Notes: generated by a model not told the origin, from the letters alone. A stretch of 48,822 nucleotides of DNA from an uncultured Flavobacteriales bacterium (GCA_937900875.1 CALCGD010000083.1:1-48822), one strand, 5' to 3'. Shown: positions 6,830 through 26,800, counted from the first letter of the stretch. Made by a program: numbers and translations.

Positions 6830-7258
6830 ATGGATTGGCTCGAATACGGCTATTGGGGATTATTTTTCGCGGCATTTTTGTCGGGCACGGTTGTGCCGTT
6901 TTCTTCTGAGGTCGTTTTGGCCGCTGGACTTTACTCAGGGATGGACCCTTTGACATCGCTTATTGTAGCCACCATTGGCAATTGGATAGGCGGATACACC
7001 ACGTTTTGGATTGGCCACTTAGGAAAGCTCGATTGGATTGAAAAGTACTTCCGAGTTAAGCACGAAAAATTGTTGGAGTGGGAGGGAACAGTCAACAAGT
7101 ACGGTGCGTACTTCGCTATTCTTGGTTGGCTACCTATTCTCGGAAATGTGATTTTACTTGCACTTGGTTTTTTCCACGCTAGACCTATTCCTTCTGCATG
7201 GTGGATGTTTGTTGGAAAAACCGCCCGATATGCAGCTATTATTTGGCTGATGAACTAA
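6830..7258 (+). CDS. YqaA-like DedA/VTT-domain membrane protein
   Basis: A 142-residue hydrophobic protein with three to four membrane segments. The region SGTVVPFSSEVVLAAGL near the N-terminus and the GNWIGGYTTFWIGHLGK segment are typical of the small YqaA branch of the DedA/SNARE-associated (VTT) family. These inner-membrane proteins are linked to lipid flipping and membrane homeostasis. The start at 6830 is an ATG placing the first hydrophobic segment at residue 9. The gene converges on the alpha/beta hydrolase, and the two stop codons overlap (TAG on the minus strand at 7255-7257, TAA on the plus strand at 7256-7258). Confidence 0.85.
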   Translation: MDWLEYGYWGLFFAAFLSGTVVPFSSEVVLAAGLYSGMDPLTSLIVATIGNWIGGYTTFWIGHLGKLDWIEKYFRVKHEKLLEWEGTVNKYGAYFAILGWLPILGNVILLALGFFHARPIPSAWWMFVGKTARYAAIIWLMN

Positions 7259-8091
7259 TTAGTCAACCATTTTAAAACCTCTTTTTTAACCAGTTCAGTT
7301 TCTGACCAAGGTAGAAGGTGGTCTCCATTTTTGATGGAGATTATTTGTAGGAACTCACTAGGAATAACCGTCTTGGAAAACTTGATATTCTCGTAAGGGA
7401 CAAGGCCGTCTTTTGTTCCGTGTAAGTGAATAAAAGGAACGGATACATGCTCCCATTTCGGAAGTAGAATATTCAACTGCTCCACGTGGGCATTTTTCTC
7501 GTCTGTAGCCACCATAAACAGATCGGGAGCCATCCACTTTGTCGCCTTCCACTTGGTTAATTTGGCGATACCCAATATCTTCTCGTTTTCTGGGTCTAAA
7601 GCAGGCGCAAGTAAAAGCGCTGCTTTAACTTTTTCAGGGTTATCAATGGCGAAGTTTGAAACAATTGGCCCTCCATATGAATGCCCAACTACAATTAACC
7701 AAGGGTATTGATAATGGGATAAGATTTTTACCAGTGCATCGCTTTGTTTCTGAATGGAAACTACAGATTCTCCTTGGTCATAAGGGCTGTAACCTAATCG
7801 ATCTACCGAAATCAAACGGGCTTGATTTAGCAGCGATGTATCGGCTAAAAAGTCATAAAAATTATTGGCTGAGCCAGGTGCTCCGTGTACGAAAAGTACA
7901 ATAGGAAGCGTGTCTTTATTAAGCGTTGAAACTTCAACCCAACGCAAAGGATGGTCGTAAATGCTATCGAGTTGGATGTTGCATTCTAATCCTCGCTTTT
8001 TGAAATACCTAAGTGTAGAATTGTCCGTTGCAATCATGGGAGAGCAACCGTACATGGTGGCTAGCAATAAAGCCAGCCAAAGCCTAATCAT
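7255..8091 (-). CDS. Alpha/beta hydrolase lipoprotein
   Basis: The N-terminus IRLWLALLLATMYGCSP is a lipoprotein signal with Cys16 as the likely lipidated residue. The rest is a complete alpha/beta hydrolase: oxyanion-hole HGAPGS, nucleophile elbow GHSYGG, acid Asp in HGTKDGLVPY and catalytic His in NGDHLLPW. It could be an esterase or lipase; the substrate is unknown. Its start overlaps the end of the upstream lipoprotein gene by 8 bases, so translation is probably coupled. It is the last gene of the long minus-strand run that includes the cytochromes and the retinol-saturase-like enzyme. Confidence 0.88.
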   Translation of the reverse strand: MIRLWLALLLATMYGCSPMIATDNSTLRYFKKRGLECNIQLDSIYDHPLRWVEVSTLNKDTLPIVLFVHGAPGSANNFYDFLADTSLLNQARLISVDRLGYSPYDQGESVVSIQKQSDALVKILSHYQYPWLIVVGHSYGGPIVSNFAIDNPEKVKAALLLAPALDPENEKILGIAKLTKWKATKWMAPDLFMVATDEKNAHVEQLNILLPKWEHVSVPFIHLHGTKDGLVPYENIKFSKTVIPSEFLQIISIKNGDHLLPWSETELVKKEVLKWLTN

Positions 8092-8608
8092 ACTTCACCC
8101 AAAAGGCAGAAGTATAACCACGCAAATCTCCACCTTGGGATGAATAGACAGGAATTCTTGGAGCTAGGCCTAAAATTTTACGGTCCAAAATGGAACCATC
8201 GGCATTGTAAGTCCATTGCTCACTGAAAGTAAGTCCGTAGAAATTTTGGCTGTAATCGCGTTCAAGTATATCAATTGATTTATCGCCTGTTTCAGGTTCC
8301 TCGAACCAAATTGTATCCGTGAATTGGAGGATTGATTTCACTTGTTCAGCGGTCAATACCTCATCCGAAAAACGGTCATATGCCTTCAGTTTTCCTGCAA
8401 GCACATCTCCAATAAGCTGCTCGGCAATGGGAGCAACATCCGAAAAATCTTCATCGTTTAAATCCTGATGAAAAACGGAGTTTAAATCAACCGCATATTC
8501 CATGGTCTTTGTCCATGTTTGGGTTGAAATTGCTTCGGTTGGAGCCTCTGTTGGCTGCTGGTCGCAGGCCACAAAACCAATCAATAAAAGCGGGATTAAC
8601 TTTTTCAT
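8084..8608 (-). CDS. Small lipoprotein, weakly GldN-like
   Basis: A 174-residue protein with a clear lipoprotein signal (MKKLIPLLLIGFVACDQ, Cys15). The C-terminal half (FSEQWTYNADGSILDRKILG, then LAPRIPV and SAFWVKYD) is reminiscent of the C-terminal part of GldN/PorN, a T9SS core component. In GldN a strand-rich segment followed by ILGIAP and an FW(I/V) motif ends the domain. The similarity is by eye only and is weak. GldN itself is longer and normally sits in the gldKLMN operon, which is not here. The start ATG overlaps the stop of the upstream retinol-saturase-like gene by 4 bases, and its end overlaps the hydrolase start by 8, so it is firmly in this operon. Confidence 0.75.
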   Translation of the reverse strand: MKKLIPLLLIGFVACDQQPTEAPTEAISTQTWTKTMEYAVDLNSVFHQDLNDEDFSDVAPIAEQLIGDVLAGKLKAYDRFSDEVLTAEQVKSILQFTDTIWFEEPETGDKSIDILERDYSQNFYGLTFSEQWTYNADGSILDRKILGLAPRIPVYSSQGGDLRGYTSAFWVKYD

Positions 8609-10233
8609 GCTGTTTCTTTTTTCATCTTTTCTCGATCCTTCAAAACCTTGTCTACAATCTTATCTGTTAACCAGAAATTGGATGTGACATGTGCTGCAGT
8701 AAGCAGTCCGCTCATAAGCGCACCGCCAATTCCAACGGTAACGATATCCTGTCCTGTTAGGTAGAGATTTTTGATAGATGTTTTAGGCCGAAGATCTTTC
8801 ATTCTGAAACGGGCAGGGGAGTGGTCTAAACCGTAAATCTCGCCATGCTCATAATTCACGAAATGCTTGGTTGAAAGTGGCGTAGAAAGCTCATAATAAT
8901 CAATCTTCCCTTCCAATTGAGGGAACTGCTTGTAAAGTTCTTTTAGCAATCGCTGTGAGAATTCCTCTTTGTACGCTTCGTACTCTTCGCCACGGTGTTT
9001 CCAGCGCTCATCTTCCCACTTGGCAAACCATTCGTAAGGCGCCAGCGTAATCATTTCGATGGTGCTCTTTCCTGGATAACGCTCTTCCCATTCGGGGTCT
9101 TTAAGCGAAGGAAACGAGATGTAAGTAACTGGAAATGGCTTGCTTTTATCCGCCATGTATTCTTTTACGCCACGGTCGTGATCGTTATGCGGATACACCC
9201 AATAATTGGTGCTTCCAATGCCGAGTTCGCGCAAATCTTGCTTCAATCCGATATAAAGACAAACGTGCGACACGGATGGAGGAACGCCTTTTTCGGGTTT
9301 GAAGCCAATCGCATCCTGAACGTCTTGATCAAGCAGTCTTCCGAATGTGTTTAGATAACCAGCGCCACTTACAATCATTGGAGCATTAACTGTAGAACCG
9401 TCTTCCATCAGAACGCCAGTCGCTTTTCCGTTCTCAACAATAATCTTCTCAACTCCTGCACGAACGGCAACTGCGCCACCTGCTTTTTCAATTACAGGAA
9501 TAATGGTTTCTGCAATTCTTTGACAACCACCAACGGGAAATGCACCGCCTTTCCAATAGTGTTTGTTCACCACCGATTGAATGGCAAAACTGCTTTCTCC
9601 AGGAGGCATTCCGTGGTCGCCATACTGGCCAGCCAACACGCCTTTAAGTTCCTTGTTGTCCGTTATTTTGTCCAAAACCTCCGAAGTTGTTTTGTCAGAC
9701 CACTCGTAATATTTCTTGGTTAAAAGTCCACCAACAAGCTTGCTTAAAATGGTTGGCAACGCTCGTTCTTGAAAGAATTTTCTATTTGAAGAAGTTGCTT
9801 TATAAACGGTTTCAATGTATTTGTCAATAGCGGCTTCCTCACCAGGAAAACGCTCATAAAGCATTTCAATAAAGTTCTCTTTACCCGATTTGAAATCGTA
9901 CGAATTATCGCCAAGAATAACGCGGTCGTAAACCTCGTCCATTTCCTTCCATTTCAGCTTATAATCCGATATGTAGTCGAACAAAATAGACATGAAGGTG
10001 AACTCCTTGTGAACATCTCCAACGTAGTGAATTCCTACATCCCATTCGTATTCTTTACGCTTAAAAATGTGCGTAAATCCGCCTGGAACGTAGTGCTTTT
10101 CTAACAACAATACTTTCTTGCCTTGTTGCGCCATAATAGACCCAAAAGTCATGGCGCCAAGACCCGAACCGATAACGATGGCATCATAACCATCTTTCTT
10201 TTCAAGTCGTTTCCAAGGTGTTCCTACTGCCAT
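8605..10233 (-). CDS. Retinol-saturase-like FAD oxidoreductase (phytoene desaturase superfamily)
   Basis: A 542-residue FAD enzyme. The N-terminal ADP-binding fold (DAIVIGSGLGAM, residues 17-28) and the VPGGFTHIFKRKEYEWDVGI stretch match the all-trans-retinol 13,14-reductase/carotenoid isomerase branch, where GGCCHTF...FDVGIHY is usual. The C-terminus also follows that branch: GEIYGLDHSPARF, then KNLYLTGQDIVTVGIGGALM, where vertebrate RetSat has a TGQD motif before its last helix. Expected chemistry is saturation, desaturation or isomerisation of a polyene or isoprenoid. No signal peptide is seen; the GALMSGLLTA helix could rest on the membrane. It lies 15 bases downstream of an RDH-like dehydrogenase and is coupled to the next lipoprotein gene. 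Confidence 0.88.
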   Translation of the reverse strand: MAVGTPWKRLEKKDGYDAIVIGSGLGAMTFGSIMAQQGKKVLLLEKHYVPGGFTHIFKRKEYEWDVGIHYVGDVHKEFTFMSILFDYISDYKLKWKEMDEVYDRVILGDNSYDFKSGKENFIEMLYERFPGEEAAIDKYIETVYKATSSNRKFFQERALPTILSKLVGGLLTKKYYEWSDKTTSEVLDKITDNKELKGVLAGQYGDHGMPPGESSFAIQSVVNKHYWKGGAFPVGGCQRIAETIIPVIEKAGGAVAVRAGVEKIIVENGKATGVLMEDGSTVNAPMIVSGAGYLNTFGRLLDQDVQDAIGFKPEKGVPPSVSHVCLYIGLKQDLRELGIGSTNYWVYPHNDHDRGVKEYMADKSKPFPVTYISFPSLKDPEWEERYPGKSTIEMITLAPYEWFAKWEDERWKHRGEEYEAYKEEFSQRLLKELYKQFPQLEGKIDYYELSTPLSTKHFVNYEHGEIYGLDHSPARFRMKDLRPKTSIKNLYLTGQDIVTVGIGGALMSGLLTAAHVTSNFWLTDKIVDKVLKDREKMKKETA

Positions 10234-10248
10234 ATTATTCTGTGGTTT

Positions 10249-11106
10249 TTATGCTGGAAAAACTTGTCCAACCAATTCCTCGCTCTTTTTCCAAAGCGCC
10301 TTTGCATTTTCTGGGTCTTGAGATGGCTTATTACTCCATTCCTGCTTGCTTCTCACCCAATAATGCCCTGTTACACCTTCTGCTTCTGGCGATGAAGCCA
10401 AATGGATAGAAGTTGCGGCACCTTTCTCAACCGTAATCATGAACGGTTTCATTACAATCCAACCAAGCTTTGTAAACCAGTTGGCATTTTTCTCGGCTAT
10501 TTCGGTTCGTACTCCTCCAGGATGAACTGCGTTAACCGTAATGCCATCTTTTTCGAGTCGTTTTGCAAGCTCTTTTGTGAAGAGAATGTTGCAGTATTTG
10601 CTTCGCGAATAGGCTTTCCAGCCACCATATTCGTCTTTCTCGTAATTGATATCATCCAAGTTTAATTCACGCGTAGACTTGTGCGCAATAGAGGATAAAT
10701 TGACGATGCGAGCTTTTCCTGCTGCCTTGATGTTATCGAGGATCAAATTTGTCAAGAGAAAATGACCAATGTGATTGGTTCCGAATTGCATTTCCAGTCC
10801 ATCTCCGGTTAGTTGCAATTCTGAAACGTAGCAGCCAGCATTGTTCACCAACACATCGATTTGCGGACATTTAGACTTCAGTTCCTCAGCCGCTTTACGA
10901 ACGGACTTCTGAGAACTCAAATCCACAAGAACGTAGCTCACAGCCTCGTTTCCTGAAGCTGATTTTATTTCAGCAATCGCAGTTTTCGCCTTGTCTTCAG
11001 AACGTGAAGTGATTACTATCTCCGCTCCTTTTTTCGCTAATGCGATGGCTGTGGCCTTACCGATTCCAGCATTTCCGCCAGTAATTACAACTGTTTTTCC
11101 CTTCAT
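10249..11106 (-). CDS. Short-chain dehydrogenase, retinol dehydrogenase (RDH11-14)-like
   Basis: A 285-residue classical SDR. The cofactor motif is TGGNAGIG (residues 9-16), followed by NNAG (88-91), the catalytic serine in NLSSIAH (138-139) and YSRSK (Tyr166, Lys170). Arg36 after the second strand suggests NADP(H). The overall pattern (GLEMQFGTNHIGHFLLT, RIVNLSSIAH, LFTKELAKRL, VNAVHPGGVRTE, then a KGAATSIHLASSPE region) follows the vertebrate RDH11-14 and WWOX-like group. It would interconvert an alcohol and an aldehyde or ketone. Its ATG shares one base with the stop of the upstream beta-helix cytochrome gene, and a retinol-saturase-like gene follows. Retinoid is one possible substrate, but other lipids are equally open. 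Confidence 0.9.
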   Translation of the reverse strand: MKGKTVVITGGNAGIGKATAIALAKKGAEIVITSRSEDKAKTAIAEIKSASGNEAVSYVLVDLSSQKSVRKAAEELKSKCPQIDVLVNNAGCYVSELQLTGDGLEMQFGTNHIGHFLLTNLILDNIKAAGKARIVNLSSIAHKSTRELNLDDINYEKDEYGGWKAYSRSKYCNILFTKELAKRLEKDGITVNAVHPGGVRTEIAEKNANWFTKLGWIVMKPFMITVEKGAATSIHLASSPEAEGVTGHYWVRSKQEWSNKPSQDPENAKALWKKSEELVGQVFPA

Positions 11107-12593
11107 TATTTGTTAATCGAAAGCATGTATTCAGCAACGGCTAACCGGGTTTCTTCCGTCAGGTAATTCTGAGGAGGCATTTCTGGGAAATCCTCTCTTT
11201 TACGAATCGGTGCATTGATGTAGTCTGCAATTCCTTGCGGATTGTCTTTGTAAAGTGCTTGAATAATCTGTGTTGGAGGTCCAATCATACGAACATCATA
11301 AGCATGGCACCCAGAACAAACCCCGTAGAAAGCCAATTTCCCTTTCTCATCTTGTTCAATTACGCGTGGTGCAACTGGCTCGCTAAGTAGGTATGATTTT
11401 ACATCATCTGTGCTTTCCAATTCGCAGGAAGCATAACCGTCTAATCCCCAAGTACGATACATGTCTCGGTTGCGAATGCAGCTTCCAACTCCGCCACCGT
11501 TGGCTAAAATATCTGGCCCTTTGTCATCAAACTGAGTTGCCATTGCGGCTTTAATATCAGCTACAGGGTTATTTCCATTGTTGTACATCACGTTATCCAA
11601 GATTACAACGCGATCTGGGTTTGGTTCGGCATCTGGGTCTTTAGAAAGCTGAGAACCGAAACTGAGGTCGGTAATAGCGATGCCCGTATTGTCATTTCCT
11701 GTAATAATATTGTTCTCAATAATCACATCATCGGCAGCCATTACAATGATGCCTGTTCCAGCAGGTAGGAGAGAGATAATGGCTCCTGGTTTTCCGAAAT
11801 TTGGGAGGTTGTTGTCCACCACAAAATTGTCGCGAATAATTACGTCATAACAGGTTTTGATAGGAAGCCCTGGCGTGATGAATGCTAGAATTCCGCCTGT
11901 GTTATTGTGGGTGTAGTTATTCTCAACCAAGCAGTGACGCGAGTTTTCAATTTCAATTCCTGCTACGCTTTCAAACACCTCGTTGTGGCGCACATCAATG
12001 TTGTCGCACATACCAACGTAAATGGCAGCATCGGCAATTCCTTGAAGCACATTGTGTTCAATCAGGCCGTTTTTTCCAAACTCTGGGAAGATGCCGTAAA
12101 CTCCCGATTCAATAATCCAGTTGTTTCGAATCAGGAAGTTGTTTCCCGCTTGCCCCATGATACCGTTCCCTTTGTATTGAACGATTTTGAAGTTTTCAAT
12201 CAGAATGTTTGAACCTGAGTAAAGAATCGCATCGTTTAGGACAGGCTCACCATCCTTGCTGCCATCCATTGTTGGCCAATTCCCTTTCTGAATTACCCCT
12301 TGTAGACTGATGTTGTCTTTATCGATATAAACCGTTTCGTGATATGTGCCTGGGAACACCCGAATCAAATCGCCAGGATTAGCCTTACCCACTGCATCTT
12401 GAATGGATTCTCCATCCCTCACTTCTATCACTGTTTTTTCTGAAAGGTCAACCGCCATGGAACCATCGCCACCTTCAAAAAATGTTGGTGGCGGAGCTGC
12501 TGGACCCGAAGCAGAGAACTTCACCTTTCCAATATAAAGTCCAGCGGCAAAAACAATGGCGCTCACAATTATTAAGACTAGAAACTTTTTCAT
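11106..12593 (-). CDS. Parallel beta-helix protein (TIGR03805 type) fused to C-terminal cytochrome c
   Basis: A 495-residue exported protein. The N-terminus (KKFLVLIIVSAIVFAAGLYIG) is an uncleaved anchor or a signal peptide. Residues from about 60 to 350 form a right-handed beta-helix (DGESIQDAVGKANPGDLIRV, VAGIEIENSRHCLVENN, NNTGGILAFITPGLP, LLPAGTGIIVMAADDV). This matches the TIGR03805 family, which I recall as usually paired with a diheme cytochrome of the SO_2930/TIGR03806 family. After a linker, residues 426-430 read CSGCH and Met472 (EMPPQ) is the likely distal ligand: a monoheme cytochrome c domain in the same chain. It lies 33 bases after the MauG-like gene and overlaps the SDR start by one base. 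Confidence 0.88.
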   Translation of the reverse strand: MKKFLVLIIVSAIVFAAGLYIGKVKFSASGPAAPPPTFFEGGDGSMAVDLSEKTVIEVRDGESIQDAVGKANPGDLIRVFPGTYHETVYIDKDNISLQGVIQKGNWPTMDGSKDGEPVLNDAILYSGSNILIENFKIVQYKGNGIMGQAGNNFLIRNNWIIESGVYGIFPEFGKNGLIEHNVLQGIADAAIYVGMCDNIDVRHNEVFESVAGIEIENSRHCLVENNYTHNNTGGILAFITPGLPIKTCYDVIIRDNFVVDNNLPNFGKPGAIISLLPAGTGIIVMAADDVIIENNIITGNDNTGIAITDLSFGSQLSKDPDAEPNPDRVVILDNVMYNNGNNPVADIKAAMATQFDDKGPDILANGGGVGSCIRNRDMYRTWGLDGYASCELESTDDVKSYLLSEPVAPRVIEQDEKGKLAFYGVCSGCHAYDVRMIGPPTQIIQALYKDNPQGIADYINAPIRKREDFPEMPPQNYLTEETRLAVAEYMLSINK

Positions 12594-12626
12594 ACTAACG
12601 GAGTGGAATTAGGGGTTGAAAATTGA

Positions 12627-13823
12627 TTAAGGCTTTGAAGGTAATCGATCTGGACGTTTTGGCATAAAACTTTCGTCTGTCAATGTTTGCAGGAAATCTA
12701 CCAGTCTGTCAAGTTCAGTATCCGATAAATTTGGTTCCCAAATATGCCAATGCAAGTAGAGATTTTCACCTTCGGGAACAGCATGGCCGCGCCCTTTGGT
12801 ATAAAACTCAACGGTTTCTCTGAGCGTTTTGAATCTGCCCGAATGCATGTATGGTGCTGTGAGCGCTACATTTCGCAGACTCGGGATTTTGAATGCGCCA
12901 CGGAGTGAGCCATCCTTGTAAGGAACTTCGGCTCCAGGATCTAAAGGTCTTCCATCTGGTTCGGGTGTTCCCAGAACCGCTAACTGTTGATTGGTGAAAA
13001 GCGGAGGAGTGTGGCACTCAGCACATCGCGCCACAAACGAACGAAAAACATTCATCCCTTCGATCTCATCCTTGTTCAAGGCGCCATGAAAACCGTGTGC
13101 ATATTGGTCATAACGGCTGTTGAGCGAAATGAGCGAACTTTCAAATGCAGCCAACGCCAGATAGACCTGTTCGAGTTCAATTTCCGTTTTGTCCTTATTT
13201 GGAAACGCCTCTTGGAACATCTTCCTGTAGGCAGGAATAGAGTTTATGGTTTCGTGAAGTTGATCTGGAGTGGTTCCCATTTCATCTTCTGAGAAAAGCG
13301 GCCCTTGCATTTGCGACTCGAGTGTAGAATCTCGTCCATCCCAAAAGAAAAGCTGTAGAAACGCAACATTCCAAAGGCTTGGCGCTCCGCGTTTTATGGG
13401 TTCTCCCAAAATCCCAATACTTCTGTCTAAGCCATCGCCAAAACCTTTTTCGGGCTGATGGCAGGTGGCGCAACTAATGGTTCCGTCTTTAGATAGAATT
13501 GGATCGAAAAAGAGATAACGACCAAGGTCAATTTGTTGTGGTGTAAATCCATCTCTAACCCGTGGAAGCGCGGTTTTTAATCCGCCAACACCCTTGTCCG
13601 TTAACGAAGCATACTGCTGATAAAGAGAACGTAATTTGCAAACACCATCATCAGTCAATTCAAACCCGGGAGGACAGCTGTTACACAGTTCAAAATCTCC
13701 AGATGATTCGGAAATTACGTTTTGAAAACCGTCTTTATTGGTTGGTTCTAGTTCTTTTTCGCAGGAAATAAGGCCAGCAATAATGGCCAGGGTTATACTG
13801 ATTCCTGCAAACGTTTTTCTCAT
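12627..13823 (-). CDS. Diheme cytochrome c peroxidase / MauG-family lipoprotein
   Basis: A 398-residue lipoprotein (signal ending GLISC, Cys21) with the two-domain layout of the CCP/MauG family. The first heme is at CATCH (118-122) after LGRYLFFDPILSKDG, and the second at CAECH (267-271). SLWNVAFLQLFFWDGRD and SLRNVALTAPYMHSGRF are the usual conserved stretches. Members either reduce peroxide or carry out high-valent oxidations on a partner protein. I cannot tell which, because the residue ligating the second heme is not certain. An extra N-terminal CNSCPPGFELTDDGVC segment is cysteine-rich but not a heme site. It overlaps the upstream cytochrome gene by 4 bases. Confidence 0.92.
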   Translation of the reverse strand: MRKTFAGISITLAIIAGLISCEKELEPTNKDGFQNVISESSGDFELCNSCPPGFELTDDGVCKLRSLYQQYASLTDKGVGGLKTALPRVRDGFTPQQIDLGRYLFFDPILSKDGTISCATCHQPEKGFGDGLDRSIGILGEPIKRGAPSLWNVAFLQLFFWDGRDSTLESQMQGPLFSEDEMGTTPDQLHETINSIPAYRKMFQEAFPNKDKTEIELEQVYLALAAFESSLISLNSRYDQYAHGFHGALNKDEIEGMNVFRSFVARCAECHTPPLFTNQQLAVLGTPEPDGRPLDPGAEVPYKDGSLRGAFKIPSLRNVALTAPYMHSGRFKTLRETVEFYTKGRGHAVPEGENLYLHWHIWEPNLSDTELDRLVDFLQTLTDESFMPKRPDRLPSKP

Positions 13824-14512
13824 TCAGGCTGTAGCGAATTGATGTACGCAATAACGTCTTTTACGGTCTGGTCATCAGGAATTGCGGTAGCTATTTGTTG
13901 CATTTGCGCACCGTAAGTGTCGTCTTGTTCGGTACCTCGAATGCCTTTGCGGAAATTGTTGATTTGGCGCTCTAAATACCAGTCTTGCATGCCTGCTAAT
14001 CGAGGTGAGAAAAGGGCTTCAATTCCTATAGCTCCCGTTCCGTGACAAGCGCCACAAATCATGTTGTAATAATTCTTTCCATTCTCCACATTTCCACCTT
14101 CTAGGGTGATTTCTGGCTTTGTTGAAGGCATTGTTTTGATGTATGCGATTACATCATTAATGGCATCACTGTCTAGTGTTTTGGCAAACGTTGCCATTTG
14201 GGCACCGAAGGCATCTTCAGCATGAGCACCTCGCTTGTTGGTTCTGAAATTTTGAAGCTGTTGCTTCAGGTAATAAGGTTCTTGGTCAGCCAAAGCTGGT
14301 GCTCCTAAAGCAAGCATTCCCTCCGCTTTTTGTCCGTGGCAGGTAGCGCACGTGATGTAAAGCGATTTTCCTTTTGTTGCGTTGCCGGTAATTGCAGTTT
14401 TCTCGGCTACAACTGGTTCCTTTTCTCCAGTTTTCTCTTCAGGAGAGGAGCCGCAACCAATCGCCATCAATATTGAGGTTACAGCGGCAATTAATCGTAT
14501 GTGTTTGAGCAT
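13820..14512 (-). CDS. Diheme cytochrome c lipoprotein (c4-like)
   Basis: A 230-residue lipoprotein (MAIGC, Cys20) made of two cytochrome c domains of about 80 residues. Hemes attach at CATCH (55-59) and CGACH (153-157). Conserved Met residues follow in GAQMATFA and GAQMQQIA, giving His/Met ligation as in cytochrome c4. Each half ends with an IAYI helix. It is anchored outside the inner membrane, or on the periplasmic side of the outer membrane, and should pass electrons between the MauG-like protein and a terminal oxidase or bc1-type complex; that role is inferred. It is a tandem paralogue of the next upstream gene and overlaps the MauG-like gene by 4 bases. Confidence 0.92.
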   Translation of the reverse strand: MLKHIRLIAAVTSILMAIGCGSSPEEKTGEKEPVVAEKTAITGNATKGKSLYITCATCHGQKAEGMLALGAPALADQEPYYLKQQLQNFRTNKRGAHAEDAFGAQMATFAKTLDSDAINDVIAYIKTMPSTKPEITLEGGNVENGKNYYNMICGACHGTGAIGIEALFSPRLAGMQDWYLERQINNFRKGIRGTEQDDTYGAQMQQIATAIPDDQTVKDVIAYINSLQPE

Positions 14513-14571
14513 GGTTTGGTGTTGAACTGCGAAGATGAGGAATTGTTGCTACTATTCAAGACCAAGGGGTA

Positions 14572-15261
14572 TTAATAGTACGTAGGCTTTCTGGTTTGTA
14601 AGGTGTGTATGTAGGTAATCACATCATCAATGGCTTGATCATCCGGAATCTGCTTTAACATCTCTAGCATTTTAGCACCTGTTGTGTCGCCTTCTGAAAC
14701 TCCCCTTATACCATCACGGAAATGCCTAATCTGCGCAGTCATGTAGTAATCTTGAATGCCAAGAAGATTTGGAGATAGGTAAGCTTCAATTCCTTTAGCA
14801 TCTATACCGTGGCACGTAGCGCATACTTCATTGTAATAATGCTTGCCGTTCTCCACATCACCATAAATGGTTTGGTCGGTTTGCAAACGGGGCAAAAGTT
14901 TGATGTAGGCGATAATGATTTCTAGTTGCTCGTCCGTCTCAATCATCTTGGCTTGCAATGCCATAACAGACCCCAGCGTATCGTGAGGATGCGCCCCCCG
15001 TTTTCCAGAGAGAAAATTATTGAGTTGTTGGCGCAAGTACCATGTTTCTTGATTAGCCAACGCAGGAGCGTTAAATGCTTTTACTCCTTCGGCATTATGC
15101 CCGTGACATACCGCGCATTTTGTGAAAAGAACCTTTGCTTCTGCAAGCTTTTCTTGACTCAGTTGGATACTGTTGTTTACCGTCTTGGTTTCTTCGGGAT
15201 TAGAACAACTAGCGAAAATTAGAATGGAAAGAGCTACGAGAAGAATTGATTGGTATGACAT
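14572..15261 (-). CDS. Diheme cytochrome c lipoprotein (c4-like), paralogue
   Basis: A 229-residue lipoprotein (IFASC, Cys19) with two cytochrome c domains. Heme sites are CAVCH (49-53) and CATCH (147-151), with distal Met in GSVMALQ and GAKMLEM. Its order of motifs (APALANQETWYLRQQLNNF, then VENGKHYYNEVC) is nearly the same as in the next gene, so the two arose by tandem duplication. A 59-base gap separates them. It is the first cytochrome of the run, and a TAACTTTG -7-like box sits just upstream of its ATG, so the redox part of the cluster may have its own promoter. Confidence 0.92.
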   Translation of the reverse strand: MSYQSILLVALSILIFASCSNPEETKTVNNSIQLSQEKLAEAKVLFTKCAVCHGHNAEGVKAFNAPALANQETWYLRQQLNNFLSGKRGAHPHDTLGSVMALQAKMIETDEQLEIIIAYIKLLPRLQTDQTIYGDVENGKHYYNEVCATCHGIDAKGIEAYLSPNLLGIQDYYMTAQIRHFRDGIRGVSEGDTTGAKMLEMLKQIPDDQAIDDVITYIHTLQTRKPTYY

Positions 15262-15290: not shown

Positions 15291-16493
15291 TTAGTAGGTC
15301 ATACCAACTGGCAGCCCTTCAATTCTAAGCACGGTAACCCCATGTTTTGGAACTTCAAATGTCAAATTTTCCGAAGGAATATTCGTTTTTGTCCAAAGAT
15401 TACGCATCGTGAATGCCGCATTCGGGTCAATTCCTACGCTTTTCAAATCAAGTTCAATTGTTTTTGAACTACCTGATCGATTTAGCAATACGACTGCTAC
15501 GATTCCGCTTTTTAATGAACCTAGTGGCTTTGCCCAAATCTCTTGTTTGCCGTAAGTAGCCAGTTTTCGTGCTTGGTACGCCAAGGAATCTTGGTTCAAT
15601 GCAATCACCTCCTTGTTGGTAAGAATTTCTATTGTCTGCTGGCTCATCTCTCGTAGATCGTTTCCAGCCAAAAGCGGGGAGTTGAGCATGCACCACATGG
15701 TAAAATGAGTTTTGTCTTCGTCATACGTCATACCGCGCCCAACCTGCAACATGTCCATATCATTGAAATGACCTGCAGAACTGTATTCCCATAAATCCGT
15801 GTTCAAATCAAGAATGTGCATCACTGAAGAAAAAGTGGGGCGAATGTCTCCTGAAATCCGCCACGAATCTGCCACATCTAGTGCCCATTCTCCGGGAAAT
15901 TTCCAGCGGCAAATGTTGTAAAGAACATCAGGTCGAATGCTGCGAATGTGTTTTCCGATTTCGGTATATCGCTGTTGGTCGTCCAACTTCATGCCTCTAC
16001 CTCCACACCAGTCTATTTTGATGAAATCGTAGTCCCAATCTAGTAGTAGCAGCGTCAAATCGCTCGCGTCATAACCATACAGTCCAACACCTTTGCCAAA
16101 TTTATCATGCTGCGAAATGGACGCACAAGTGTTGTTGCCTGCATCCGAATAAATACCTGCTTTAAGACCTTTTGAATGAATGTATTCGGCTAAGATTTTC
16201 ATTCCAGTTGGAAACTTTTCTGGATGGGGCAAAAGGTTCCCGCTGCTATCCCTACCGCCAAAATAACCGTCATCAATATTGATGAAAGTGTACCCAGCGT
16301 CTTGCATGCCAGATGAGACCATGGCATCTGCTTGTCCACGAATCATCTGTTCGTCAATGTCAATATGGAAATGATTCCAACTGGACCAGCCCATAATTGG
16401 GACTTTTGGACGATTGTCCTCCTGTCCAAAAAGGGCTGTACTTGTTAATACCAGAACCGAAATGACAAAAATGTATGTGGTTCGGCTCATCAT
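15291..16493 (-). CDS. GH27 alpha-galactosidase-like exported protein
   Basis: The track starts inside the upstream fadJ-like gene. The ATG at 16493 (or 16490) gives a clean signal peptide (SRTTYIFVISVLVLTSTALFG) and begins 4 bases after the fadJ-like stop. GH27 signatures follow in order: MGWSSWNHF at the start of the barrel, INIDDGYF, AGIYSDAGNNTC, the nucleophile Asp in FIKIDWCGG, and the acid/base Asp in WRISGDI. A small C-terminal beta domain (WAKPLGSLKSGIVAVVLLNR) ends the protein, as in other members. It should hydrolyse alpha-galactosides, or a related sugar, outside the inner membrane. Its place behind beta-oxidation genes is unusual and its role there is not clear. Confidence 0.92.
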   Translation of the reverse strand: MMSRTTYIFVISVLVLTSTALFGQEDNRPKVPIMGWSSWNHFHIDIDEQMIRGQADAMVSSGMQDAGYTFINIDDGYFGGRDSSGNLLPHPEKFPTGMKILAEYIHSKGLKAGIYSDAGNNTCASISQHDKFGKGVGLYGYDASDLTLLLLDWDYDFIKIDWCGGRGMKLDDQQRYTEIGKHIRSIRPDVLYNICRWKFPGEWALDVADSWRISGDIRPTFSSVMHILDLNTDLWEYSSAGHFNDMDMLQVGRGMTYDEDKTHFTMWCMLNSPLLAGNDLREMSQQTIEILTNKEVIALNQDSLAYQARKLATYGKQEIWAKPLGSLKSGIVAVVLLNRSGSSKTIELDLKSVGIDPNAAFTMRNLWTKTNIPSENLTFEVPKHGVTVLRIEGLPVGMTY

Positions 16494-16497
16494 GGAT

Positions 16498-18627
16498 TTA
16501 CTGGTAGAATTTCTCTCCTGCTTTGGCCTTATCCACAATAATTTGCGGTGGTAAGAAACGCTCACCATGTTTCTCTGCCAGTCGGTTAAAGATGTCCACG
16601 GTTTCTTGCGCGCCTAGCGTGTCCATATAGCGGAATGGTCCACCACGGAAAGGAGGGAAGCCAAGTCCGAAAACGGCACCAACATCGCCATCCAACGGAT
16701 TGGCAATGATGCCTTCTTGAAGACAAAGAGCGGCTTCGCTTACCATGCTCATTCCGATGCGCTCATAGATTTCTTTGTCGTCAAACTTCTTGCGCGTTGA
16801 ACCGCCAAAGAAGTTGTAAACGTTATCATCGAGCTCACGCATGTTCTTGCCGTTCTCGTCATACTTGTAAAAGCCTTTCTTGTTCTTTCGACCGTAGTAT
16901 TCAGCTTCGTACATTTTGGTTATTCCATCCGAAGTTTTAACTCCCTTTCTGGTTGCGATAAAGTGCTCAATCAAATCTCCAGTCATGATGTGATAACCAA
17001 CATCAATTCCAACTTCATCCATTAGTGTAATTGGTCCAACAGGGAAACCGAATTTCTTCAATGCTTTATCGATTTGAAGTGCATCAGCACCTTCATCAAG
17101 CATATTCAATGCTTCGCCCATCAATGGTGCAAGAATTCTTGTGGTATAAAATCCAGGACCATCTTTTACAACAATCACTGTTTTTCCTTGTCGGACGCCT
17201 AAATCGTAGCATGTAGCTGTTACCCAATCAGCGGTTTGATCGGTAACCACAATTTCCAACAACGGCATTTTAGGAACTGGAGAGAAGTAGTGCATCCCAA
17301 TTACCTGCTCAGGTCGTTTGCTTGCTTTCGCGATTTCCGTAATCGGAAGAGCGGAGGTGTTAGAAGCGAAAATGGCATCCTTACTCAAGTGCTCTTCGCA
17401 CTCTTTCATCACCGTGTGCTTCACTTTCATGTCTTCAAAGACTGCTTCAATTAGCACATCAACCTTATCGAAATTATTGTAATCCAATTGTCCGTTTACA
17501 CGGTTCATCAAACGGTCGGCATCCAACTGGTTCATAGCTTTGCGCTGCACCTTTTTTCCGATGTCGCCCCAAATGGTTTTGCGGGCTTGAGTTAATGTTT
17601 CCTGCTTGATATCTTTCAGTAGAACACGCACATCTTTGGCGGCCGAAACCTGAGCAATTCCAGCGCCCATAAATCCTGCACCAACCATGGCCATTGTGTT
17701 GGTCTTTTTAGCCAACGCTGCCTGCGGGTTTTTCTTCTTATCTGTCATGGCGAAGAAAATGCCACGAAGTTGGAAGCTTTCAGGAGTAAGAATGAGTTTT
17801 TCGAAGCGTTTCACCTCTTCGGCATAGCCTTTTTTCTCGCCAGAACTCATTCCAATTCGGACACATTCCATAATCTCGTAAGGCGCAGGATAGTTGCCTT
17901 TTGTTTGGCGATCCACCATCTCTTTTGCCTTCTTGAAAATGATGTTCCGAGTAACCGGATTTCCTTCCAAGAACTTCTCCATTCCAGAGCGTTTATCTTC
18001 ACGCTTGAATGGTCGCTTAGCAATTTCATTTGCAAGAATAATGGCCGCATCTAGCAACGCTTCTTTGGTAGCAATACGATCAACCAATCCCATCTTTTTG
18101 GCAGGATAAGCGAACACATTCTTACCGGTAAGCATCATGTCCAATGCTTTCTGAATACCTACCAAACGTGGCAAACGCTGTGTACCGCCACCTCCAGGAA
18201 GCAGTCCAAGTTTAACCTCAGGCAAAGCCATGATTGTCTTTGGATTGTCGGAAGCCACACGCGCAGAACAGGCCAAAGCGATTTCTAACCCAGCACCCAT
18301 GCACGCACCGTTGATGGCGGCTACAATCGGCTTTTTGCTGTTTGCAATACGATCAAGAATTTGGTGGCCTTTTTCGGCAACTGGTTGCCAGTCGCCTTCT
18401 TTCTTCACATTGGCGAAAGCTTCGATATCAGCACCAGCAATAAAGTCCTTCTTGCGGCTAATCATTACCGCAGCACGCACTTCGCTGTCGTTCTCCAATT
18501 CATCCATCATTGGGTTGAACGTGTCAATCATATCAGGACCAATCTTGTTGATTTTTGAGTCTTGCTCGTCCATCCAAATGATGGCGATACCATCACGTTT
18601 TTCTATTTCAACGTACTTGTTCCTCAT
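16498..18627 (-). CDS. fadJ: Multifunctional enoyl-CoA hydratase / 3-hydroxyacyl-CoA dehydrogenase (FadJ/FadB-like)
   Basis: A 709-residue fusion. The N-terminal crotonase part has the CoA/oxyanion motifs GADIEAF and NGACMGAGLEIALAC and the catalytic Glu in LPEVKLGLLPGGGGTQRL. The C-terminal dehydrogenase part has the NAD fold VGAGFMGAGIAQ, the SNTSALPITEIA stretch and the catalytic His in GMHYFSPVPKMPLLE, then two HAD C-terminal domains ending FPPFRGGPFRYMD. It carries out the hydration and oxidation steps of fatty acid beta-oxidation. Only one base separates it from the upstream T9SS cargo gene, which in turn overlaps the thiolase gene, so all three form one transcript. The symbol is by homology; fadB is an alternative. 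Confidence 0.93.
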   Translation of the reverse strand: MRNKYVEIEKRDGIAIIWMDEQDSKINKIGPDMIDTFNPMMDELENDSEVRAAVMISRKKDFIAGADIEAFANVKKEGDWQPVAEKGHQILDRIANSKKPIVAAINGACMGAGLEIALACSARVASDNPKTIMALPEVKLGLLPGGGGTQRLPRLVGIQKALDMMLTGKNVFAYPAKKMGLVDRIATKEALLDAAIILANEIAKRPFKREDKRSGMEKFLEGNPVTRNIIFKKAKEMVDRQTKGNYPAPYEIMECVRIGMSSGEKKGYAEEVKRFEKLILTPESFQLRGIFFAMTDKKKNPQAALAKKTNTMAMVGAGFMGAGIAQVSAAKDVRVLLKDIKQETLTQARKTIWGDIGKKVQRKAMNQLDADRLMNRVNGQLDYNNFDKVDVLIEAVFEDMKVKHTVMKECEEHLSKDAIFASNTSALPITEIAKASKRPEQVIGMHYFSPVPKMPLLEIVVTDQTADWVTATCYDLGVRQGKTVIVVKDGPGFYTTRILAPLMGEALNMLDEGADALQIDKALKKFGFPVGPITLMDEVGIDVGYHIMTGDLIEHFIATRKGVKTSDGITKMYEAEYYGRKNKKGFYKYDENGKNMRELDDNVYNFFGGSTRKKFDDKEIYERIGMSMVSEAALCLQEGIIANPLDGDVGAVFGLGFPPFRGGPFRYMDTLGAQETVDIFNRLAEKHGERFLPPQIIVDKAKAGEKFYQ

Positions 18628-20876: not shown

Positions 20877-23800
20877 ATGAGCATACAAGTTCAAACCAAT
20901 CCAACCAATATGATTTTTCGCAGAACCAGTCAGGCCTTTGTTTCGGGCCTTCTTTGTTTCTTAATGCTACTGCCAAGTTTGGCTAGCGCAGAAGGGACCA
21001 AGCAGACAACTGCCACATCTTCGGATAGAACACACTTACTTACCAATTTTGGCGAGTACAATAATTTTGGTCGGTACAACGGTACGCTGGATCAAAGACT
21101 GTTTATCCATATTGAAAACCCTGAAACTGAAGTTGTTTACTTTGGATTTAGTCAGTTTTATGATGAACCTCACTGGCCAAACACTGGAAATTCCAGAACT
21201 GGCTATTTCCGTATTAAGGATCCAGCAGGAAACGTTGTTTGGCCTACCGCTGGAAACCCGAATGGACAGATAAACAATTCAGCAATAGCCAACTGGTCTC
21301 AGGCAGTTAACGGACCCAATCAGATAGTTGGAACGGGCGGTTACAATGCATTCACTTTTAATCCTGATGGATTGCCAGCTGGTGATTATTACATCGAGTT
21401 TAGTGCTTCTCAAGGGGCTTACAATTCTGATGATTTAATTATTCCATACTATGATATTACGGTGGCAACCGAAAGTGGAACACCAACAGCAATTGACGGT
21501 CGCGTTTTTTCTTACAACTGGGCTTTTATGTGTCCTTCTATCAACTATCCAAATGATTATTTCGATAGAGACTTTACTGGTCAGATGTATGTATATTCTG
21601 ATGATGGTTTTGTAAGTACAATCGATTTTAGCCAAGCTGAATTTCAAGGAGCTGCATTTAATATCGCTTTCAATAGTTCTGGTACTGGAAACTCTGGAGT
21701 TTTTGAAGATGACCGAGCTTCTGTTCAGGGTAGCAATGTTACGTTTGCGGAGTATCGTGTCTTTTTGAATGATCCTGACATAAGTGTATACCCCAATGGT
21801 ACGTTCGGAGAGTTTGTGGAGAATGCTGATTTCCCAAAGCTGTACGGGTGTCCAGACGACAATCAATGGTTCTTCCGATTTGCAGCCACCCAACCCGGTT
21901 TAGTAGAGGTATTGGTTGATATAGACGGCAATTTTGAGTTCGATCCAAATACAGCTGATTTGGTTTTCTCGTTAGATATAGTTCCCTATCCTGGAGAAAC
22001 TGCTCCATACGAAAGAGATATACCCTGGGATGGATTGGATGGATTGGGAAACCAAATTCCTTCAAGCACCCTCCTTTCAATTCAATATTCGTATTCACAA
22101 GGATTTTATCATTTGCCAGTTTACGATGTGGAGCATTTGCGAACGGGCCTATCTGTTACATCTGTTCGACCGGCCACTCCGCAGCCATACAACCCTGAAT
22201 TCTTTTATGATGATGAGGCTATTTCCGAAACGCTTCCTGGTGGCCAACCAGACTTGGAGCTGAATGGCTGTACGCCACCGTGCCATTATTGGACGAACAC
22301 CGATTACGGAAACGAAAACACGATTAACACTTTTTGGTACGCTTACCGTTCGGAAACCCAAGCCGTAATACCTTTCGAAACTCCTCCGCCTACATGTGCT
22401 GGTTGCCCATTTGTTCCTTTTGAAATTCTTGGAACCGTTTTTCATGATGCAAGTGAGAATGGTGCGTTGGATGGTTTAGAGCAAGGGTATCAGGGAGTTA
22501 CTGTTCGTGTTTACCGAGATGCCAACAGCAACGGAACATACGAGTCTGGAACAGATCCACTTATTGATACAGATGTAACTGACGCAAATGGAGATTACTC
22601 GCTCTTAGGTCAGATTGCAACAGAGCACTTGGTTATTGTTGATCAGAATACATTCCCTACAAACAGTGTATTAACCACTGCTGGACTTTATCCTGTGGAG
22701 TTCTTCTCTTTATATGATGCCGATTGTGATGGTCTGTTTGGATTTGTGACGTACCCGATTGCGAATACCGACTACGATACGATTGTAGATACTTCGATTC
22801 CTATAGTTGTTTGTGTTCAAGACAATGATGTTGATCCTCTCGGAGATGGATTGACAACAAGTATTGTTACTCCGCCAGTAAATGGAGGAACAGCTGTGCT
22901 TCAGGGCCTATGTGTTGAGTACACTGCAATTCCTAATTATATAGGAGTTGATTCTTTGGAGTATGTAATCTGCTCGCCAGAAGGATTATGCGACACAGCT
23001 TGGGTCGTTATTCAAATAGGAGATATATGTGGTGATGGAATTGATAATGATGGTGATGGTTTGATTGATAACTATTCACCTGAAATTGTAGTTACTGCTA
23101 ACGGTGTAAATCCTTATTGCGTTGGTTTCTCTGATGGCTCTTTAACAGGTAGCGGAATAGGTGGTCGTACAACTTATATATACACATGGTTAGAAAACGG
23201 CATACCATTCTCAAATTCTGGGATGGTTTTGAATGTTGATGCAGGGACCTATATTTTCTCTGTAGAAGATGCTAACGGATGTAAGGAAGAAGAGACAGTT
23301 GTACTGCAAGCAGGGAATTGCCCGCCTATTGCAAACAATGATTTCCACACTACCCTGGTAGACATTCCTGTTTCAGGAAATGTATTGACAAACGATATTG
23401 ACCTTAACGGAGACAACCTTATTGTATCGACTGCTCCAGTCACCGGGCCATCACATGGTTCTGTTGTGTTAAGTGCGAACGGCACTTTCATATATACACC
23501 CAACCCTGGTTTTGAGGGAGAAGATCAGTTTGTGTACAACGTTTGCGATGATGGAATTCCATCACTTTGCGATCAAGCAACGGTATACATTGAGGTAATT
23601 CCGATTACGACTGGTAACGAACCACCAATTGCAAATTCAGACAATGCACAGACTTTCCAAGGTATTCCGGTAACAGGTAATGTGCTTGTGAATGATAATG
23701 ACCCAGATGGAGACAACATTATTTTAAACATAACGCCACTTACTCCTCCATCTAACGGTACGGTGGTTATGCAACCAAATGGCACATTCCTTTATACACC

Positions 23801-26800
23801 AGACCCATCTTTTATTGGTACCGACACTTATACCTATAGAATATGTGACGATGGCGTTCCCGTTTTGTGTGATTCTACAGTTGTTACTATTAACGTATTG
23901 CCAGACTCTGACCCTAATAATCAGCCTCCACTAGCAGGAAACGATGGGGCTGTAACTCAAATTAATACACCAGTTAGTGGAGATTTGCTTGCCAACGATT
24001 CTGACCCAGATGGCGACAACATCGTAGTAAATACAACGCCAATTTCAAATCCATCAAACGGATCGGTAATAATTAATCCAAACGGAACATTTGACTACAC
24101 ACCAAACCCTGGTTTTACAGGAAGCGATGTGTTTAGCTACATGATTTGCGATGACGGAGTACCTAGCTTATGTGATATTGCTGATGTGACTATCATTATC
24201 ACAACAGATAACCCGGGTAATCAACCACCAATTGCTCAGAATGATGAAACTTCCACCAATCAAGATGTTCCTGTTTCTGGAAGTGTAATTCCAAATGATG
24301 GTGACCCGGATGGCGACCCAATCACAGTTAACCCAACTCCTGTGGCTGCGCCAACTAATGGTTCGGTTACGCTTCAGCCTAACGGAGACTTCACTTATAC
24401 ACCAAACCCAGGTTTTTCGGGAATGGACTCTTTTGTATATAGTTTATGTGATAATGGTTCACCACAATTGTGCGATGAAGCAACCGTTACTATAACAGTT
24501 ATTCCTCCATTCGACCCAGGAAACGATCCTCCTTACGCAGGCGATGATGGGGCGCTTACGCCACAAGACGTTCCGGTTTCTGGAAACTTGCTCACCAATG
24601 ATTTTGATCCAAATGGAGACAACATCATTATTAATACTACTCCAGTTGTTGGACCATCAAATGGTGGTGTTATTATAGATGGTTCTGGAAACTACACCTA
24701 TACGCCAAATCCAGGCTTTATTGGAACAGACCAATTCATCTACAGAATTTGTGATGATGGAACGCCAGTATTGTGTGCAACTGCCACATGCATTATTACC
24801 GTTTACCCAGACAACAATCCTCCGGTAGCCGTTAATGATATCAACGGTACGTTGGTAAACACGCCAGTTGATGGTGATGTAATTACCAACGACTATGATC
24901 CAGATGGAGATAACATTTCGGTGACTTTGCTTTCTGGTCCTCCAAACGGAAATGTAACGCTAAATCCAAATGGCACTTACACTTACACGCCAGACCCAGG
25001 TTTTGCTGGCGAGGATGTATTTACATATGTGCTTTGCGATGATGGAGCACCACAATTGTGCGATACTGCTGAAGTTTCTATTGAGGTGGTTCCAATCAGC
25101 ACAGGAAACGAACCGCCAGTCGCTCAAGACGATAATGCAATTACCTATGTAGATGTGCCAGTTTCTGGTAATGTGCTTACTAACGATGCCGATCCAGATG
25201 GTGACAACATCATTCTAAACCTGACTCCACTTTCTGGCCCAGACAATGGAACAGTAACTCTCTTAGGAGATGGTACATTCAACTATACTCCCGATTTAGG
25301 ATTTGAAGGTGTGGATGTGTTTACATATAGTATATGTGATGATCAGATTCCTAGTCTTTGCGATACAGCAACGGTTACTATTACTGTGTTACCAGATTAC
25401 AACGGTCCAGATAACGACCCACCATTTGCTGGTGATGATTTTGCACTTACACCGCAAGAAGTACCAGTTACCGATGTTCTTCTGTTGAACGATTACGATA
25501 TTAATGGAGACCCAATTACCTTAAACACCACTCCAATTTCGGGTCCTTCAAACGGTACAGTTTCAATTCTGCCAAACGGAACATACACTTACACTCCAGG
25601 ACCAGGGTTTATTGGCACGGATCAGTTTGTGTATGAGATTTGTGATGATGGAACTCCAAACTTGTGTGCTCAAGCCACTTGTTACATCACTGTTTATCCA
25701 GATAATAACCCTCCAGTAGCGGTTAACGATTTCAACAATACGCTGGTTGATACGCCAGTTCCTGGAAACGTGATTACAAACGATTATGATCCTGATGGAG
25801 ATAACATAACGGTTAATCCAACGCCAGTAAGTGGTCCTTCAAACGGAACATTGACTTTGCAACCAAATGGCAGCTATGTCTATACTCCAAACCCAGGTTT
25901 CGAAGGTGAAGATTCATTTACCTACACGCTTTGCGATGATGGAATTCCTCAATTGTGTGATAACGCTGTTGTGGTGATTACCGTAATTCCGGTAACGGAA
26001 GACAACGACCCACCGGTGGCTAATCCTGACAATTATGTAACTCAGGTAAACACACCTATTGGAGGGAACATTTTGGTGAACGATGACGACCCAGATGGAG
26101 ACAATATTATCCTCAACACATCGCCTCTTATAGGTCCTTCAAACGGAACTGTAACGGTTGCTTCTAACGGAACAATTGTTTACACACCAAACTTTGGCTT
26201 TACTGGAGTTGACCAATTCACTTATAGAATTTGTGATGATGGAACTCCAGTTCTTTGCGATGAAACTACGGTTACAGTTACGGTCCTTCCAGATTTTAAC
26301 GGTCCGAATAACGACCCTCCTTTTGCAGGAGACGATGCGGCACTTACGCCAATGAATGTTGCTGTTTCAGGTCAATTGTTAACCAATGATTTTGATCCTA
26401 ACGGAGATAATATCATTATAAATACCAACCAAATTTCTGGCCCATCAAATGGAACGGTTACCATTAACTCTAATGGTACTTACACATACACTCCAAATCC
26501 TGGCTACGTAGGTCCAGATCAGTTTGTGTATGAAATTTGTGATGATGGTTTCCCAGTACTGTGTGCGCAAGCAACTTGCTACATCACCGTATTCCCTGGT
26601 CCTGGAATTAGCTTTACGATTACTGAACCATTTTGTAATGGTCAGAGTAATGGTTCAATCAATATTACTGTAACAAATGCAACGCCTCCATTAACTTATT
26701 CTTGGAGCAATGGTGCTACCACAGAAGACTTGAATAATGTTCCTGCGGGAACTTATGTTGTTACTGTAACAGATGCTCAAGGAAGCGTTCTTCAGCAGAC

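Follow-up and report, generated by a model that had tools for sequence, protein, structure and literature searches.

A candidate exported redox module of a c4-like cytochrome, a MauG-type diheme enzyme and a beta-helix cytochrome in an uncultured Flavobacteriales bacterium

Eight genes on the minus strand at positions 7255-15261 of a 48,822-nucleotide stretch of DNA from an uncultured Flavobacteriales bacterium (GCA_937900875.1 CALCGD010000083.1:1-48822; the whole stretch is called the window here) raise the question of whether they serve one pathway. They encode two diheme cytochromes (c4a and c4b), a MauG-like diheme enzyme, a beta-helix protein with a c-type heme (BHX), a short-chain dehydrogenase (SDR), a RetSat-like FAD oxidoreductase, a short GldN-domain protein and an alpha/beta hydrolase. 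A first-pass annotation had proposed that the whole set processes one substrate, perhaps a polyene, isoprenoid or sterol-like compound. Its eight genes and their coordinates were reproduced by open reading frame (ORF) calling, and its seven heme sites in four proteins by counting CXXCH motifs (two each in c4a, c4b and the MauG-like protein, one in BHX). In this study, we found that a c4-like cytochrome, the MauG-type enzyme and BHX very probably form one conserved module, judging from their sequences and gene neighbourhoods. The module is apparently undescribed to date; no paper on it was found in the literature searched, in which the old Ruegeria locus tags used were guesses.

Conservation of the c4-MauG-BHX unit

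BHX was used as the query in a scan of genome contigs, 148 relatives were searched further, and the neighbourhoods of 15 loci were compared. The relatives found in the contig scan came from Bacteroidota and Gammaproteobacteria and were 55-84% identical, and a MauG homologue lay directly upstream in 10/10 of the close ones. The proteins found in the 148 relatives fell into two distinct groups: BHX orthologues, 63-88% identical and equipped with the C-terminal heme domain, and TIGR03805 paralogues, about 27-37% identical and without it. MauG adjoined BHX in every one of the 15 neighbourhoods except L080, where the contig ends. Among 274 sampled genomes of the class of HTCC2143, BHX orthologues were found in three, and MauG was present in all three. 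The megaplasmid of Ruegeria pomeroyi carries a c4-like gene, MauG (50% identity), a TPR gene and BHX (43%) consecutively, and the complete module of strain DSS-3 is SPO_RS20595, RS20600, RS20605 and RS20610.

When all searches were pooled and duplicates removed, 27 BHX loci were obtained. MauG accompanied BHX at 26 of them, the remaining locus being L080, and lay immediately upstream on the same strand at 25; the single TPR gene separates the pair in R. pomeroyi. The c4-MauG-BHX unit therefore spans Bacteroidota, Gammaproteobacteria and Ruegeria pomeroyi, that is, three bacterial classes. The co-occurrence across Bacteroidota suggested by the first-pass annotation thus held for the TIGR03805 protein with the MauG-like protein, and extended beyond that phylum; it failed for the SDR and the RetSat-like protein, which accompany them in one subclade only. 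A search for viral copies found none.

The association was also seen from the side of the enzyme. In the set of 148 relatives, members of the MauG subfamily with no less than 65% identity were confined to BHX-bearing genomes plus G001, and the next MauG matches were at about 40%. G001 has two c4-MauG copies (L213 and L214), one of them fragmented, on contigs that break off close to MauG. The MauG and BHX trees had 10 of 20 splits in common, whereas 2000 shuffles of the labels gave 0.28 on average and never more than 3. The distance correlation between the two proteins was 0.83, and several strongly supported clades were common to both trees. In locus L052 (genome G383, another member of Bacteroidota), a 764-aa fusion protein joins a MauG domain (71-373) to a TIGR03805 beta-helix (428-709). 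Since MauG and BHX are neighbours in three classes and the agreement of their trees greatly exceeds random expectation, these results indicate that their grouping is more than chance.

The two c4-like proteins have the layout of cytochrome c4, with two tandem class I c-type domains (PF00034) and two CXXCH motifs each. A c4 homologue lay upstream of MauG in 18 of the 26 MauG-BHX loci, and a second c4 copy was present in the window and in L072.

The diheme enzyme, its beta-helix neighbour and their possible reaction

The MauG-like protein belongs to the bCCP_MauG superfamily (PF03150, 184.3 bits against a gathering score of 25.6), with CXXCH motifs at 118 and 267 and heme histidines His122 and His271. 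In the alignments, Tyr341 aligned with the axial Tyr294 of MauG, and the FY pair was kept in 23/23 sequences. Trp161 and Glu181, both in invariant columns, correspond to the inter-heme Trp93 and the distal Glu113 of MauG. Where the electron-transfer heme of classical cytochrome c peroxidase has a Met axial ligand, this protein has Tyr. The protein also carries an extra conserved N-terminal CPPxF...C segment and a C-terminal HWH motif. Its top-scoring PDB matches were bacterial diheme peroxidases, and the best match of its C-terminal region was MauG. No mau operon or methylamine dehydrogenase gene was found within the window, and the rest of the genome was not searched for them. Tyr-His ligation sets MauG and BthA apart from Met-His bacterial cytochrome c peroxidases (PMC6405878). 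These results suggest that the diheme enzyme of the module probably carries out MauG-type rather than plain peroxidase chemistry.

BHX consists of an N-terminal membrane helix, a TIGR03805 right-handed beta-helix at about 64-363 and a C-terminal c-type heme domain with CXXCH at 426. Its AlphaFold2 model was a right-handed beta-helix (pLDDT 77.2, pTM 0.79), and the nearest PDB folds were beta-helix polysaccharide epimerases and lyases (RbmB, AlgE4, AlgG and PL6 lyases; TMt at most 0.60), to which BHX is just 9-17% identical. Eight BHX residues (D188, Y166, Y192, E214, E216, N217, N261 and N265) were also found in three fusions and in 90% or more of 33 TIGR03805 paralogues. No invariant Trp was present in the BHX alignments, and a Trp modification of BHX as in methylamine dehydrogenase or MbnP was rejected on that ground.

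The sequences themselves establish that the module exists and is conserved, that the MauG ligand set and the common beta-helix residues are present, and that MauG and TIGR03805 domains occur fused. Our best explanation, to which we give nearly even chances, is that the three genes encode an exported redox module whose MauG-type enzyme would oxidize BHX or a ligand held by BHX. Upon reaction with peroxide, the Tyr-His-ligated diheme enzyme would enter a high-valent state that could oxidize either BHX itself or a carbohydrate-like ligand held on the beta-helix. Electrons may then travel between the MauG-BHX pair and the respiratory chain through the BHX heme and c4, in a direction that we can only suppose. 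The choice of the beta-helix or its ligand as what the enzyme oxidizes is itself tentative, on the doubtful side of even. A bolder version, which we consider quite unlikely, is that TIGR03805 proteins are a new class of redox partner for diheme enzymes, in which a MauG-type enzyme or TIGR03806 would oxidize one conserved Tyr of the beta-helix, Y166 or Y192, to a radical or a protein-derived cofactor for oxidative chemistry on an exported polysaccharide.

Several points weigh against the proposed oxidation of BHX by a MauG-type enzyme. The surface Trp199 of MauG is not kept in the family; its column, two positions before the second heme Cys, holds Ala in 11/11 sequences. The protein scored 185.4 against the cut-off of 443.85 for the MauG equivalog TIGR03791, and 223.1 against 362.85 for MbnH (TIGR04039). 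Its AlphaFold2 model was of low confidence (pLDDT 45.5), too low to reveal any interface. We infer the possible carbohydrate ligand from fold similarity of a predicted model only. The L052 fusion does without the extra BHX heme, so not all versions need it, and c4 may be accessory because no upstream c4 was present in 8/26 loci. No experimental or expression data on any module member were found.

Two other readings of the module were weighed. The top-scoring PDB matches to diheme peroxidases, the distal Glu181 and the presence of two c-type donors would suit plain peroxide defence, in which the MauG-like protein acts as a cytochrome c peroxidase with c4 and the BHX heme as its electron donors, while the role of the beta-helix is limited to anchoring it to the cell surface or to a polysaccharide. 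However, the axial residue is Tyr instead of the peroxidase Met in all 23 sequences, and scavenging needs neither strict pairing with one beta-helix orthologue nor conserved non-heme residues in the beta-helix; we regard this reading as unlikely. It is equally unlikely that the beta-helix itself is the catalyst, a lyase- or epimerase-like enzyme of an exported polysaccharide for which the heme proteins remove or supply electrons in an oxidative sugar reaction. The fold matches and the common acidic and Tyr residues are consistent with such a role, as are a TIGR03805 protein in a Burkholderia exopolysaccharide cluster (PMC3584217) and the SusC/SusD genes that come after MauG-BHX in L085, but the identity to the fold matches is low, no catalytic motif was matched and the neighbours differ widely between loci. 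The distant loci were also considered as a guide to the substrate, and this was given up: L017/L018 (thioesterase, flavin oxidoreductase and dipeptidase), L084 (glycyl radical enzyme) and L085 have no recurring theme.

Flanking genes and layout of the locus

It is only in the genus subclade that the SDR, RetSat-like, GldN-like and hydrolase genes lie beside the module. The first-pass annotation would have given up its grouping had the order been unique to this genome; the full arrangement also occurs in the close relatives G002, G004, G005 and G008, and piecemeal in G003 and G001. The deeper congeners G006 and G007 and all other families have the c4-MauG-BHX core or MauG-BHX alone. Outside the subclade, RetSat-like homologues stood alone, with varying neighbours and unlinked to MauG-BHX. 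The GldN-like and RetSat-like genes are on separate contigs in G007 and about 3.7 kb apart in G006, and the hydrolase and GldN-like genes are conserved together in five genus loci. By gene order, these four genes are a separate genus-level neighbourhood, which may be co-transcribed with the module in this genome.

An eight-gene pathway as a general unit was rejected, since beyond the subclade the four genes do not accompany the heme genes. That all eight genes oxidize a polyene, isoprenoid or other lipid in one pathway is very unlikely: the gene order is common to several congeners, fatty-acid oxidation genes lie upstream, and some diheme relatives are reported to oxygenate fatty acids (PMC4496055), but beyond the subclade the lipid-type genes do not stay with the heme genes, and in G006 and G007 they lie apart. 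A single polyene or lipid pathway is not supported because these genes flank the module in the genus subclade only, and nothing specific to a polyene, retinoid or sterol was found; the single substrate of the first-pass annotation was dropped on these grounds. A chance neighbourhood of functionally unlinked MauG and BHX is almost certainly wrong, being already contradicted for the core by co-location in three classes, the L052 fusion and the congruent trees, with nothing in its favour there, and it could fit the flanking genes alone.

The retinoid names of the SDR and the FAD enzyme (RDH and RetSat) are superfamily-level resemblance only. The SDR scored 242.6 bits against PRK06197, under its cut-off of 268, and the FAD enzyme fell short of the CRTISO cut-off (Table 1). 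The short GldN-domain protein matched PF19841, though it scored 25 against 85.9 for the equivalog of GldN, the ring subunit of the type IX secretion system (T9SS; TIGR03523). A longer GldN-type match was found elsewhere (G000:C67). No T9SS operon was visible near the short gene, and weaker relatives of its product (31-37%) occur in G011, G053, G057, G093 and G125.

Between BHX and the SDR/RetSat-like genes, congeners have varying insertions (L072 7959-12326, L073 9869-13040 and L075 7047-9005). These contain a heme-less TIGR03805 paralogue, accompanied by TIGR03806 in L073; the insertions of L072 and L075 also hold small ORFs which, read by eye, resemble toxin-antitoxin genes. In G004, an ordinary TIGR03805/TIGR03806 pair sits between BHX and the RetSat-like gene. 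Locus L010, titled Chryseobacterium gleum, appears to be the same as G003:C126, from a congener of the window genome, and its name may be wrong.

The features of the locus are collected in Table 1. Four of its junctions are overlaps (8, 4, 1 and 4 bases) and the others are gaps of 15, 33 and 59 bases; the overlap sizes of 1-8 bases in the first-pass annotation were right, and its count of five was one too many. It had also listed two lipoproteins, one of them small. The small one is the GldN-domain protein, and an N-terminal lipobox-like Cys was seen in five products (c4a, c4b, MauG-like, GldN-like and hydrolase), of which the MauG-like product alone fits the strict lipobox pattern; the other four were read by eye. 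A promoter scan gave fewer sites than shuffled sequence.

Table 1. Genes of the locus and of its upstream side, with positions in the window
Feature	Position	Strand	Evidence
c4a, diheme c-type cytochrome, lipobox-like FASC	14572..15261	-	PF00034 in two stretches, 4.8e-25; CXXCH at 49, 147
c4b, diheme c-type cytochrome, lipobox-like AIGC, core member	13820..14512	-	PF00034 in two stretches, 3.5e-24
MauG-like diheme enzyme, lipobox LISC, core member	12627..13823	-	PF03150, 2.7e-54
BHX, TIGR03805 beta-helix with C-terminal c-type heme, core member	11106..12593	-	TIGR03805, 193.4 bits (cut-off 141.5)
Short-chain dehydrogenase (SDR), genus-level neighbour, outside core	10249..11106	-	PF00106, 2.1e-40
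CrtI/CRTISO/RetSat-superfamily FAD oxidoreductase, genus-level neighbour	8605..10233	-	TIGR02730, 152 bits (cut-off 586.9)
Short GldN-domain protein, lipobox-like FVAC, genus-level neighbour	8084..8608	-	PF19841, 44.5 bits (gathering score 23)
Predicted exported alpha/beta hydrolase, lipobox-like MYGC, genus-level neighbour	7255..8091	-	PF00561, 3.7e-18
Alpha-galactosidase-like (GH27)	15291..16568	-	PF16499, 1.5e-47
fadJ-like fatty-acid oxidation gene, locus boundary in genus	16498..18627	-	Name from sequence, without hidden Markov model (HMM) test

The same-strand run extends upstream with the alpha-galactosidase gene (29-base gap from c4a), the fadJ-like gene and a thiolase-like gene. Homologues of the fadJ-like gene, 87-92% identical, adjoin the c4 region in genus loci. 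The position of the alpha-galactosidase gene is taken by other genes in relatives, among them one for a 1084-aa protein in L073 and L075, which has a T9SS sorting domain in L073. Elsewhere in the window, positions 20877-34145 encode a protein of 4422 aa in which numerous Ig/cadherin-like and SprB repeats are combined with a CHU_C T9SS tail. At 45646-47484, two consecutive ORFs match parts 2-95 and then 102-358 of the SBP_bac_5 profile; they are a single gene for a solute-binding protein, interrupted by a frameshift or by an error in the assembly.

Comparison with known systems

To our knowledge, partners have been identified for only a few MauG-type enzymes, and the known ones act on Trp residues. 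A strictly paired, widely spread MauG-type enzyme with a beta-helix partner that has no conserved Trp would widen the roles of diheme enzymes. The complete module in R. pomeroyi DSS-3 opens it to tests in a model bacterium of environmental origin.

The window enzyme shares the PF03150 fold with the MauG of methylamine dehydrogenase maturation and keeps the equivalents of Tyr294, Trp93 and Glu113. Unlike MauG, it is without the Trp199 equivalent and adds the CPPxF segment and the HWH motif, and its partner is a beta-helix without an invariant Trp. In MbnH/MbnP and CorB/CorA, a MauG-like diheme enzyme is encoded beside an exported partner, which is modified at Trp. The module resembles these systems in having an enzyme and an exported partner, and differs from them in the missing invariant Trp of BHX and in the score below the MbnH cut-off.

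A MauG-like gene is also conserved beside an exported enzyme in the mtoX-SCO1-mauG operon of methanethiol oxidase, and is thought to mature it (PMC5739008). The partner enzyme is different in that operon, and a SCO1 gene was not noticed here, where no HMM search for SCO1 was made. BthA of Burkholderia is likewise a Tyr-His-ligated diheme enzyme outside a mau operon, with its function open; it adjoins a putative phosphatase and has no clear inter-heme transfer path (PMC6405878), whereas the window enzyme adjoins a beta-helix cytochrome and keeps the inter-heme Trp.

The closest plan is that of the TIGR03805/TIGR03806 pair, for which no functional description was found and on which the module gives a handle. 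As a rule, the gene after that of an ordinary heme-less TIGR03805 protein encodes a diheme protein, which was TIGR03806 where tested, or the two are fused, so a diheme partner appears to be the common plan for TIGR03805; fusion proteins of about 1020 aa joining TIGR03805 to TIGR03806 were seen in L215 (4684-7752) and L216 (2001-5072). TIGR03806 was not among the matches of the window's MauG-like protein, and the two genes are not a TIGR03805/TIGR03806 pair. Homology of MauG and TIGR03806 was considered and rejected, as a profile comparison aligned an 11-residue heme motif only. Both systems place an exported TIGR03805 protein beside, or fused to, a diheme c-type protein; the partner is the SO2930 family diheme cytochrome (TIGR03806) in the pair and a MauG-type enzyme in the window, where the beta-helix has its own C-terminal heme. 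Because TIGR03805 usually pairs with the diheme TIGR03806, which shows no homology to MauG outside the heme motif, the window module can be viewed as a variant of the TIGR03805-diheme plan that uses another diheme partner and carries one more heme.

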